Positions 5,823 through 36,191 of a DNA stretch of 37,654 nt are shown one piece after another. The stretch lies in IMG/VR virus record IMGVR_UViG_3300034355_000265, positions 1-37,654 of that record. One strand, written 5' to 3'. Positions within the stretch are counted from its first letter, which is position 1, and every line of letters starts with the position of its first letter. The notes beneath the pieces were generated by a model that had not been told where the DNA came from, made no database searches, and saw nothing but the letters and a program-made list of their open reading frames with translations. The DNA comes from a virus. The translations under genes and the position numbers were made by a program.

Positions 5823-5917
5823 CTCGTCTGCTCCTGTCACCGGCACCGGACATCGGCGCCACAGAACGAACTCTATGCGCCAATCCTGACGCGAACCTTA
5901 CAGCTTCCAGGCGGAGC

Positions 5918-6227
5918 GAGGGGTACCGCAGTGGGTGCCCCTTCTGGAGGCGGATTGGGGTGGTCAGCACAGAAAACGCGGTTGCCCTCTGGGTGCCCCT
6001 AGTACCCCTGTTTAAAGCCATCACTTTCGCGAACGTGTTGGTCGAGCTGCTAGTAAATGGAGGGGTACTGAGGGGTACCGAGGGGTACCGAGGGGTACCA
6101 CCTGATCACGGCGTGCCGGTACCCCTAGTACCCCATGTCCACCAACACTCGGCGCAAACACCCTCCGGACCCGGTACCCCTAGTACCCCTCCAGATCGAG
6201 AATCGGCGCGGTACCCCTAGTACCCCT
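5918..6227. repeat. iteron-like GGGGTAC array with four dyads
   Basis: Five GAGGGGTACY units occur, one at 5918-5927 and four in exact 10-bp tandem at 6060-6099. In the other orientation there are four 17-bp elements GGTRCCCCTAGTACCCC at 5992, 6118, 6173 and 6210; each holds two GTACCCC cores 9 bp apart. A partial GGTGCCCC lies at 5934. The last three dyads alternate with a short TCGGCGC element (near 6148, 6202, 6239). No convincing gene covers this stretch. Such phased, oppositely oriented repeats in a divergent intergenic region are typical of replication origins (iterons), packaging sites or multi-copy regulator sites; which one applies is not decided by sequence alone. Confidence 0.85.
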
Positions 6228-6313
6228 CGGACACCAGAGTCGGCGCGAGGATCGAGGGGAATCAGGCCTGCGCAGCGCTGCCGCCCAGGCGCGCAGGGAT
6301 ACGGTACGGGGTA

Positions 6314-32694: not shown

Positions 32695-32840
32695 TTAATC
32701 CTCCTTGCCGGCACTGCCAGCAGCCAACGGTCACCCAGCAAGCGGATCGAGCGGATCCACTGCCGGGCGTTGTGTCGATCCGTCCGGCGGTCGCCGGATG
32801 CCCACAGGGTGCGCGCGCGGCGCAGCATTCGGGTGTTCAC
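32691..32840 (-). CDS. 49-residue Arg/Trp-rich protein
   Basis: GTG 32840 overlaps the upstream stop (GTGA), GAGGAG lies 8 bases before it, and its TGA overlaps the next ATG. The protein begins VNTRMLRRARTLWASGDRRT and continues DRHNARQWIRSIRLLGDRWL. It is strongly basic with four Trp. Similar short proteins appear in phages of related build. It may bind nucleic acid. The three translation signals make the gene convincing in spite of its size. Confidence 0.68.
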   Translation of the reverse strand: MNTRMLRRARTLWASGDRRTDRHNARQWIRSIRLLGDRWLLAVPARRIK

Positions 32841-33415
32841 TCTGCCTGCTCCTCAAAGCGCGTCACGCGGAATGTGCCGAACGGGCCACGCTTCTCCGGG
32901 CGGAAGTCGCCAATCCCAATGCTCAGGCCAGACTGCTCCAGCAGCATCTGCGCGTCTTCGACCTTCATCAGAGTATCGTCCACGCCGATGCTGAACTTCA
33001 GCCCCCAGCAGTCAAACCTGGGGCGGTGCCGCATCACGCGACCCTTGGTGGCGGGGATCGTGACCGGCCGTGAGTCCACCTCGTAATCGGTAGCGGGGCC
33101 GGAGCCGTTCATCACCGTGATGGTGGGCTCAAAGATGCGAATCGCACTGGGCACGATAAACCGCATCGACTTGCGCGACCCGGGCATTTTGTAGTTCGTG
33201 CCGGCCGCCCCCATCGCGTTGGGAATGGCAAACGCGCTGATGTAGAACGTGCCATCGGGGTGCCGGTAGGCAACCTTCTCCGCCTGCTCGCGTGGGGTGC
33301 CTCGGTTCTGCACAACGCCGCGCGCCTTGCCGCTGCTGGAGGTTTCCGCTTCCTCGCCAAAACGGTGCATCAGAAGAGGTTGAATGCCACGAATTTCAAT
33401 GTTGATCAGTTTCAC
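32837..33415 (-). CDS. conserved phage early protein, possibly RAMP/Cas7-like fold
   Basis: A 192-residue protein; GTG 33415 follows GGAG at 7 bases. It starts VKLINIEIRGIQPLLMHRFG. GTFYISAFAIPNAMGAAGTN and the C-terminal SGLSIGIGDFRPEKRGPFGT followed by FRVTRF are conserved in phage early regions next to recombination genes. The N-terminal beta strand with PLL-H and the GIGDFRP-G-F end recall the ferredoxin-like RAMP architecture (Cas7-type RNA binders); that is my structural impression only. It could bind nucleic acid in the RecT/exonuclease pathway. It is separated from its upstream gene by the GCCNN array. Confidence 0.65.
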   Translation of the reverse strand: MKLINIEIRGIQPLLMHRFGEEAETSSSGKARGVVQNRGTPREQAEKVAYRHPDGTFYISAFAIPNAMGAAGTNYKMPGSRKSMRFIVPSAIRIFEPTITVMNGSGPATDYEVDSRPVTIPATKGRVMRHRPRFDCWGLKFSIGVDDTLMKVEDAQMLLEQSGLSIGIGDFRPEKRGPFGTFRVTRFEEQAE

Positions 33416-33460
33416 GTCAAATCTCCGTTGGTTAAAACACACTCACATTTGGGCGAAATT

Positions 33461-33634
33461 GCCATGCCACGCCTCGCCGCGCCTCGCCACGCCAGGCCAG
33501 GCCTCGCCACGTACCATGCCTTGCCTTGCCGGGCCCCGCCCAGCCATGCCAAGCCTCGCCATGTACCTTGCCTTGCCATGCCACGCCTTGCCTCGCCCCG
33601 CCTTGCCTCGCCCCGCCTTGCCTTGCCATGTACC
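33461..33634. repeat. GCCNN pentanucleotide array in three blocks
   Basis: About thirty GCCNN units run head to tail, where NN is mostly TC, TT, AC, AT or CC. The array is divided into three blocks (about 10, 9 and 12 units), each closed by GCCAYGTACC (at about 33506, 33558 and 33625), after which the phase shifts by two bases. A period of five makes every frame read as a five-residue repeat, so open frames here (Ala/Arg/Gly/Trp-rich) need not be genes. On the transcribed minus strand it reads as NNGGC repeats in a 223-base leader between the HTH gene and the 192-residue gene. Confidence 0.9.
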
Positions 33635-33638
33635 ACGA

Positions 33639-33815
33639 TCATCGCTCGGCCTCAGCCTCGTAAGCCAGCACGTCGGCCAAGCGGTAGCGGGCCTGGCCGC
33701 CGATCTTTAGCCACGTCGGGCCTTTGCCTTGGTGTCGCCAGTTCTCCAGCGTGCCCACGGCGACCTTCCACCTGGTGGCCAGTTCTTCGGTGGTCAGCAG
33801 TTCGTCTTCGTTCAT
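33639..33815 (-). CDS. AlpA/excisionase-like HTH protein
   Basis: A 58-residue protein starting MNEDELLTTEELATRWKVAV. ATG 33815 overlaps the RecT-like stop (ATGA), with GAGGAG 8 bases upstream. LTTEELATRWKVAVGTLENW and KGPTWLKIGGQARYRLADVL are the signature of the HTH_17/MerR-like domain of excisionases and AlpA regulators. No integrase is seen, so a regulatory role for early genes is more likely than excision. It ends 5 bases before the GCCNN array, which it might bind. Confidence 0.85.
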   Translation of the reverse strand: MNEDELLTTEELATRWKVAVGTLENWRHQGKGPTWLKIGGQARYRLADVLAYEAEAER

Positions 33816-34558
33816 ACCGCGCCCTCCTCGGCGTCAATGATCTCGGCGTCCACGGGCGGTGCCTGCTCGGCGCGGATCTCGTCGGCGCGGCGCTGCACTG
33901 CGGCCACCACGCGGTCGCGCTCCTTGCCCTTGGGCACGCGGCGCATGTCGGGGCGCAACAGATCGAGGAACTCCAGCGTGCTGGCGTTTTCGATGCTTTG
34001 CACCAGTTTGTCCACGTCGATTGCCGCAGGGGGCGGGGGAGGCGCAACCTCCTCTGCGTCACCCATATCGCGCACCGTGCGCTGCGGGGCCATGTCCTCG
34101 GCTTCCTCTGGCGTGTAGGTGCCGATGGCCACGCCGGGGTAGATGGTGCGGATGCCCTCGCTGATGCACCTAGCGCGCAGCATCTGGCGCGGATAGGACT
34201 TCCACGTCGGGTTGCGGGTCAGACCGGCGCTGACGGCCATGTCGGTCGTCCACTCAATGCGAACTCTGCCGCCCTGCGGGTGGGTGAACGTGCCGACGAC
34301 CTTGCGGTCGGTGTACTCGCCCCATTCGACGCGGCCACCAGCCTGCTGGAACCGCGCCAGCATGGCGTCAGCGCGCAGCGTGGGTCGGCCGTTGATGACG
34401 TGGTAATCGCGGGCGGCGATGGCGGGGTGCATGCCCTCGGCCTGCGCGATCAGCATCAAGGCCATTGCCTGGTCGGGCGTCTTGACGCCGAACAGGCCAG
34501 ACTTGGCGACGGCCAGCGCCATGCGCTCGACTTGGTCTACGGGGATCAATGCGGTCAT
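33812..34558 (-). CDS. RecT-family single-strand annealing protein
   Basis: A 248-residue protein, AGGAG before ATG 34558. ALMLIAQAEGMHPAIAARDY, INGRPTLRADAMLARFQQAG, NPTWKSYPRQMLRARCISEG and IRTIYPGVAIGTYTPEEAED are the conserved core of RecT-like annealing proteins. After about residue 165 a Pro-rich linker and a charged helical tail follow. It anneals complementary strands produced by the YqaJ exonuclease of the same operon, supporting concatemer formation, repair and gene exchange. Confidence 0.9.
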   Translation of the reverse strand: MTALIPVDQVERMALAVAKSGLFGVKTPDQAMALMLIAQAEGMHPAIAARDYHVINGRPTLRADAMLARFQQAGGRVEWGEYTDRKVVGTFTHPQGGRVRIEWTTDMAVSAGLTRNPTWKSYPRQMLRARCISEGIRTIYPGVAIGTYTPEEAEDMAPQRTVRDMGDAEEVAPPPPPAAIDVDKLVQSIENASTLEFLDLLRPDMRRVPKGKERDRVVAAVQRRADEIRAEQAPPVDAEIIDAEEGAV

Positions 34559-34894: not shown

Positions 34895-35143
34895 TCAGTC
34901 AGTTAGGCCGGCGGATTCGTCGGCGGGGACGGCTTCGGGCAGGCCGACGGTTTCCACCATGACGCCAGAGGCCATCAGCGAGATGATGTCGTCGTGCGTG
35001 GCGGGCGCGATCACGAATTGCGGCGTGACGTGACGCAGCACGTCGGCCACGGTGTAAGCCCGCACCAGTCGCTCGTTGCCCTCTGCGTCCATCACAGTCC
35101 ACGCCTTCATCACGCGCGTGTAGGTGCGCTTCTTGTCGCTCAT
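34895..35143 (-). CDS. small early protein, unknown
   Basis: An 82-residue protein starting MSDKKRTYTRVMKAWTVMDA, with GGAAGGA before ATG 35143, overlapping the exonuclease stop by ATGA. Beta-type segments (AWTVMDAEGNERLVRAYTVA) precede helices (ADVLRHVTPQFVIAPATHDD) and an acidic tail. Its place next to exonuclease and RecT suggests an accessory to recombination, such as an exonuclease modulator. No motif proves this. Confidence 0.7.
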   Translation of the reverse strand: MSDKKRTYTRVMKAWTVMDAEGNERLVRAYTVADVLRHVTPQFVIAPATHDDIISLMASGVMVETVGLPEAVPADESAGLTD

Positions 35144-35775
35144 TGCTTTCCTTCCGCGAGGCGCCGCAGCGCCTCGACTTTGCTGCCGACCTCTTTGAGG
35201 AAAGCCGAGATCCCGAACGCCAGGTCGGCGATAGCTTTTGGGTCGGCGGGGATGCGCTGGACGTACAGCTGCAACGGCTCGGGCATACGCGGGTCGTACG
35301 ACACAAAATCGCACCACTGCCGGCCGGTGATCCACATCTGGCCCTGCACCTGCGGCATGTGCTCTGTGGGCATACCGCCCAGCAACGTCTCGATGTGGAC
35401 CGCGCTGTTGTACGGGCACTTGATCTCGATCAGGCCGTCCCAGTCCACCAAGCCATCCGGGCTGCAGCCTGCCAGCAGCGTGTCGTGCGCGACGAAGCCC
35501 GTCTCCTCGACGCTGATGCCGGTGACGCGCTCGTAAGCGGCACGCGCTGCGGCTTCCTGCTCGGTGCCCCAGAGCATGGCGGCAGTGGTGAACTTCTGGA
35601 CGGGCTGGCCGGTCAGGCGCTCGACGACCAGTTCGGTGAGGTAGTCGCGCTGGGCCTGTGCGGGCTGGCCGTTCTTCAGCGTGGCCATCGCGTCCTTGAA
35701 CCGGGATGCGGTGGCCTTGCCGCAGCGGGCGGCATACCAGTCGTCATCGCGCTGGGTGGCGGTTTCTAAAATCAT
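35140..35775 (-). CDS. YqaJ-family (lambda Exo-like) exonuclease
   Basis: A 211-residue protein; AAGGGG six bases before ATG 35775 supports this start over an upstream TTG. DDDWYAARCGKATASRFKDA is the YqaJ N-terminal signature. LLAGCSPDGLVDWDGLIEIK holds the PD-(D/E)xK residues (D of SPDG, E and K of EIK). HMPQVQGQMWITGRQWCDFV is the Q-x-Q-x2-M helix. It degrades one strand of double-stranded ends to give overhangs for the RecT-like partner. The pair forms a complete phage recombination module. Confidence 0.92.
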   Translation of the reverse strand: MILETATQRDDDWYAARCGKATASRFKDAMATLKNGQPAQAQRDYLTELVVERLTGQPVQKFTTAAMLWGTEQEAAARAAYERVTGISVEETGFVAHDTLLAGCSPDGLVDWDGLIEIKCPYNSAVHIETLLGGMPTEHMPQVQGQMWITGRQWCDFVSYDPRMPEPLQLYVQRIPADPKAIADLAFGISAFLKEVGSKVEALRRLAEGKQ

Positions 35776-35786
35776 GCTGCGCCCCT

Positions 35787-36191
35787 TCAAAACCAAAGGT
35801 GTGAATCGTCGTACTCGGCGCGCTTGAGGTCTTCCTCGTAGCGCTCCCAGGCCCGCGACGTGATGTCGCCGTCTTTAGCCCGCAGAAAGCGCACGCGCAA
35901 CTCATACACTGCGGGCACGATGCGGTCGATGTGACCGGCGAACACCAAGGCAATCAACTGATCGGCAGTGGCCTGCTGCAACTCAGCCGGCACGGCCTGC
36001 AGATCTACGGGCGTCTCGTCGGCGGTTGCCTCGTGGGCAAGCCAGTCGACGACGAACAGAGGCGTGCGGGCGATCTCGTCCTTGGCCGCCTCGATGTCGA
36101 GGTCGATGTCTTCGTAGTCATACCTCGGGTCATGGGGGTGACCCGTGAACGGGCCGTAGTCCGGGTCGTAGTAGGCTTGGCTGATTCTCAT
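35787..36191 (-). CDS. hypothetical acidic protein, first gene of early leftward operon
   Basis: A 134-residue protein starting MRISQAYYDPDYGPFTGHPH. ATG 36191 has AGGAG eight bases upstream; an in-frame start at 36233 does not. It is very acidic and Tyr-rich (DPRYDYEDIDLDIEAAKDEI), with helices (AELQQATADQLIALVFAGHI, WERYEEDLKRAEYDD). It is the promoter-proximal early gene, so it should be made first after infection, a position often used by proteins that target host machinery. Function unknown. Confidence 0.75.
   Translation of the reverse strand: MRISQAYYDPDYGPFTGHPHDPRYDYEDIDLDIEAAKDEIARTPLFVVDWLAHEATADETPVDLQAVPAELQQATADQLIALVFAGHIDRIVPAVYELRVRFLRAKDGDITSRAWERYEEDLKRAEYDDSHLWF

Follow-up and report, generated by a model that had tools for sequence, protein, structure and literature searches.

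A GCCNN repeat array in a P22-like phage genome very probably encodes VIPR guide RNAs for the Vipr-like RAMP protein downstream

A chain of GCC triplets, each followed by two variable bases, fills the gap between a small helix-turn-helix gene and a gene of the family phrog_4652, so far listed as of unknown function, in the virus record IMGVR_UViG_3300034355_000265 (37,654 nucleotides, the whole of which is referred to here as the window). The question it raises is which of its letters carry information and which molecule reads them. We consider it very probable that the array represents three guide RNAs (vrRNAs) of the VIPR type (Viral Interference Programmable Repeat), and that their partner, a Vipr RAMP protein, is the product of the gene downstream. 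A preprint of April 2026 describes VIPR, a relative of CRISPR, as a minimal locus made up of a phage-borne RAMP protein of ~20 kDa and vrRNAs of 9-16 GGY/NN repeats, also written YNNGG, the NN letters of which pair with double-stranded DNA with one base skipped, so that the transcription of competing phages is repressed (PMC13142463).

Counting the steps between triplets gave 31 GCC triplets on the plus strand between 33461 and 33625, spaced by 5 nt throughout except for two steps of 12 nt, in blocks of 10, 9 and 12 units along that strand. The coordinates, unit, block sizes and joints given in the preliminary description were all reproduced by this count. The array is informative on the minus (coding) strand, on which it reads GGTACAT-(GGCNN)12-GGTACAT-(GGCNN)9-GGTACGT-(GGCNN)10-TTTCGCCC and on which each joint, GCCA[CT]GTACC on the plus strand, becomes GGTACRT followed by GGC. 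As the longest period-5 GCC chain elsewhere in the window has 3 units, a chance origin of the array is excluded. The features of the locus are as follows.

33461..33642, minus strand: putative vrRNA guide array, led by GGTACAT, with joints GGTACAT and GGTACGT; GGC every 5 nt, NN variable
33568..33627, minus strand: putative guide block A, 12 units, NN = AA AA GG GA AA GG GA AA GT AT AA AA
33516..33560, minus strand: putative guide block B, 9 units, NN = GA TT AT TG GG CC AA AA AT
33459..33508, minus strand: putative guide block C, 10 units, NN = GA CT CT GT GA GC GA GT AT AA
33416..33463, minus strand: 3′ flank of the last block, a conserved GGCAATTTC(T)GCCC element and then the vipr RBS, identical across the clade
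32837..33415, minus strand: vipr gene (phrog_4652), 192 aa, GTG start after GGAG, Cas7/Csm3-like RAMP by profile match to PDB 36pp and AF2 model
33639..33815, minus strand: small DNA-binding protein of the HTH_17 (AlpA/excisionase-like) type, 58 aa (Pfam HTH_17, E 1.9e-10)
33812..34558, minus strand: RecT-like single-strand annealing protein, upstream neighbour (phrog_561, E 2.6e-32)
35140-35796, minus strand: YqaJ exonuclease, farther upstream in the same minus-strand run of genes

In VIPR an invariable structured 3′ tail comes after the repeats. Here the GGCAATTTC(T)GCCC element is found only behind the last block, the internal blocks having just the GGTACRT joints and no long 3′ tail. It could form a small hairpin, which in the L141 version is GGCA-ATTTC-TGCC. 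None of the Rfam families, hammerheads included, reached the gathering threshold in the window or in 12 other loci. Misassembly of the repeat is very unlikely, since near-identical contigs from other samples keep the same GGC frame with different NN and similar arrays occur in two phages known as isolates, LESphi2 and UmaThurman. A connection had also been proposed, through a shared GGTAC, with the array at 5918-6227, and this appears to be coincidental. That region (5908-6236) consists of AGGGGTAC(C/T) repeats in both orientations, with four 28-nt copies around GGTACCCCTAGTACCCC and with GAGGGGTACC in tandem. From their sequence these repeats look like iterons or operators and give no sign of a link with a guide array.

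The identity of the protein was approached through both its family and its fold. A profile of the family (98 members) matched the entry 'SUSP1 Vipr protein' (PDB 36pp) with an E value of 2.5e-42 in an alignment covering approximately the whole chain. With the AlphaFold (AF2) model of the 192-residue protein, for which the pLDDT is 93, Foldseek returned Csm3/Cas7 RAMPs as the top folds (E 1.4e-6), and VIA gave a Z of 12.5 to Csm3/Cas7, with an rmsd of 4.2 across 169 residues. The family consensus includes the G-loop-like motif GIGDxRPxxxGxFGxF. The family phrog_4652 can, therefore, take the label Vipr.

Along the minus strand the genes run in the order YqaJ exonuclease, RecT-like protein, HTH_17 protein, array and vipr, in a virus record that also carries P22-like portal and coat genes. 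The vipr gene stands as a single gene in a minimal phage-borne locus. The array had been described as part of an early operon leader; it does lie within the recombination operon, in the intergenic region between the HTH_17 and vipr genes, but it is not a leader at the operon start. The suggestion that the AlpA-like protein might bind the array found no support in the sense of an AlpA operator, the partner being the RAMP protein encoded just downstream. As some types of VIPR have DNA-binding accessory proteins, the HTH_17 gene is a possible candidate for a vipr-accessory protein (vap).

To relate array and gene independently of one another, the survey was carried out from both directions. A gene-blind scan of viral contigs for eight GCCNN units gave 120 stretches. 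Degenerate arrays were found on 110 viral contigs, of which 82 have the phrog_4652 (Vipr) gene as well, for the most part at a distance of tens to hundreds of bases from the array on either side, and all but one of 121 arrays (120/121) were on the coding strand of the vipr gene. Starting instead from the protein, a GGY chain in the sense orientation was found within 1 kb in 51 of 54 distinct contigs, compared with 0/54 after shuffling; one of the 54 had an antisense chain only. Vipr homologues in bacterial genomes had a nearby chain on the strand of the gene in seven cases out of eight. The entropy of the NN letters was near-random in phage arrays (above 2.2 bits in 151/164), whereas matches to the pattern in bacterial genomes were mostly uniform repeats (below 1.5 bits in 97/129). 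Taken together, the two surveys and the NN statistics indicate that GGC is the fixed part, that NN is the informative part and that the partner is phrog_4652. It follows that a plain DNA pattern, at least eight GGCNN units with diverse NN, is able to detect such systems without a protein search. Arrays on the strand opposite to vipr are rare, the examples being L176, where the array is upstream of the gene, and L097. Multi-block GGY arrays also lie beside Vipr homologues in bacterial genomes, probably within prophages (L353, 2086-2310, and L335, 2083-2345, minus strand).

The surveys also bear on whether the array might simply be a DNA element for recombination, a tract bound by RecT or a hotspot that grows and shrinks by annealing. 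The recT-like gene is only two genes upstream and the number of blocks differs among relatives, as this would predict, but what stays with the array in diverse phages is vipr (found by local profiles at 167 loci, compared with 26 for recT), and both the strand bias and the NN diversity would be left unexplained. We regard this as extremely improbable. That the array is a plain microsatellite, or coding DNA that is repetitive, has next to no probability either. Frames are open across the array, giving a 76-residue ORF at 33412-33642, and there is an ATGA start/stop overlap in the window; relatives, however, do not keep the frames, several of them having TTG in place of the ATG or lacking it, while the dinucleotide TA, a possible stop, occurs 124 times in the arrays generally. 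The units are, moreover, degenerate where a microsatellite would be uniform. The preliminary view that the array is not selected as a reading frame thus holds, the frames not being conserved in relatives, and its proposal that the constraint acts on the RNA is most likely right. Slippage, which it had offered as another possibility, would yield uniform repeats like most of the matches in bacterial genomes; the phage arrays hold GGC and vary NN.

The comparison across related phages that the preliminary description had proposed proved decisive. On contigs where the vipr and HTH genes are ~95-100% identical to those of the window, between 3 and 5 blocks are present with different NN strings, and the GGC spacing is almost always kept. 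In L136 both genes are identical to those of the window and a single unit of guide C differs, with AC instead of CT. L137 and L138 have an array of four blocks upstream of vipr with letters almost wholly unlike those of the window, though the protein is 99% identical. This turnover fits with guide letters under selection from targets that themselves change. It is conceivable, though on balance unlikely, that in this clade the array acts as a fast-evolving modular memory in which blocks bounded by GGTAC are gained, lost or rewritten, as whole blocks or as single NN pairs, by recombination between joints, in which the neighbouring RecT perhaps helps. If true, this would be a simple route to the acquisition and diversification of guides without Cas1.

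The same pattern weighs on the proposal of a cis-acting RNA element for autoregulation, in which the neighbouring RAMP protein would bind triplets every 5 nt in the manner of TRAP and no guide would be involved. The array is on the same strand as vipr and just upstream of it, and 9-12 repeats would suit an oligomeric RNA binder. Regulation, however, has no need of NN diversity, and here the NN letters are near-random and turn over between near-identical phages; in addition, 85 of the 121 surveyed arrays are downstream of the gene, and the vrRNAs of SUSP1 act in trans (PMC13142463). An element of this kind would seem very improbable. TRAP-type regulation as such was rejected, as the neighbour has a RAMP fold and not a TRAP fold and the spacers are the variable part, with turnover.

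Returning to the guide RNA reading, the defining sequence features of VIPR that are found here are the RAMP protein, the blocks of GGY/NN repeats (12, 9 and 10 units) on the same strand upstream of the gene, the hypervariable NN and the minimal viral locus. The locus is clearly a new example of a system described very recently and does not amount to a new kind. The present analysis covers the anatomy of the array, the identity and fold of Vipr, the linkage and strand of gene and array, and the turnover of the guides; transcription, RNP assembly, the skip code and silencing we infer for this locus from the experiments on SUSP1 and P. fulva (PMC13142463). By analogy with these, the array region would be transcribed together with the minus-strand genes and Vipr subunits would polymerise on the repeats, presumably at one per 5 nt (the assignment of one subunit to each repeat is our own). 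Each subunit would grip a GGC (GGY) triplet and leave the next two bases exposed. The exposed NN pairs would then read double-stranded DNA with one target base, usually a codon wobble position, skipped between pairs (NNxNNx...), such that 9-12 units would provide an address of 18-24 letters spanning ~26-35 bp. The bound complexes would be expected to shut off transcription in rival phages or prophages.

To look for targets the guides were compared with viral contigs, with 1 nt skipped between pairs. None of these contigs matched guide B exactly. For guide A a single 20/20 match turned up, in a gene of a low-GC phage, and it breaks down over the last two units. Three distinct sites matched guide C at 18/18, and one of them (L327/L329) extends to 20/20 with the skips at wobble positions. 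The matched gene is small-terminase-like (TerS-like) and directly precedes a GpA-type terminase large subunit. This may be a target, though it may also have arisen by chance; the match is not strong, because guide C had three distinct 18-letter matches and the phage seems unrelated to that of the window. The matches from these exact scans were few and at a level that chance could produce, and one shuffled guide used as a control gave 0. Relatives of the TerS-like candidate with matches to variant guides were limited to the two contigs L327 and L329. When skips of 0-3 nt were compared for 215 guides against 2.4 Mb, the real guides could not be told apart from order-reversed controls at any skip and 1 nt was not singled out. 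The composition of the NN pairs agreed best with codon positions 1-2 in sense, with a rho of 0.36 that is not significant. Guide A, with up to 3 mismatches allowed, had no match in 400 genomes from the family of Roseateles, and the guides of the clade gave nothing above background against the partial sequences of the related phages DSL-LC05, MW202483 and P26218.

VIPR is only months old in print, with two loci characterised in depth. The window adds an array-rich clade of uncultivated P22-like phages that combine near-identical backbones with different guides, a natural series in which the origin and the targets of guides can be followed.

The closest known systems are the VIPR loci of Escherichia phage SUSP1 and of a Pseudomonas fulva prophage (PMC13142463; PDB 36pp), with which the window shares the small RAMP protein and the sense GGY/NN arrays in flanking intergenic space. 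It differs from them in that its three blocks follow one another head to tail through GGTACRT joints with no long 3′ tail on each, and in its neighbours, recT, the HTH_17 gene and, farther upstream, the YqaJ exonuclease. Staggered arrays with overlapping vrRNAs receive a mention in the preprint, and the joined blocks of the window may correspond to these (fig. S18, PMC13142463). A phrog_4652 (Vipr) homologue, which the annotation calls no more than a hypothetical protein, is likewise present in Pseudomonas phage LESphi2 and in Gordonia phage UmaThurman, and GGY/NN chains accompany it there on its own strand. In LESphi2 (P. aeruginosa LES prophage 2; L346, 2839-2930) a chain of 10 units lies ~110 nt upstream of the homologue and is followed by a strong hairpin, while in UmaThurman (L347, 3087-3400) several chains begin just after gp39, the Vipr homologue, and continue through gp40, which makes gp40 doubtful as a coding gene. 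More distantly, the Csm3/Cas7 backbone of type III CRISPR-Cas shares the fold and the principle by which RAMP subunits form a filament along a guide RNA. Those systems, however, have a 6-nt period and a contiguous spacer, whereas the window has a 5-nt GGC period and a noncontiguous guide, and neither CRISPR repeats nor further cas genes were seen among the genes examined.
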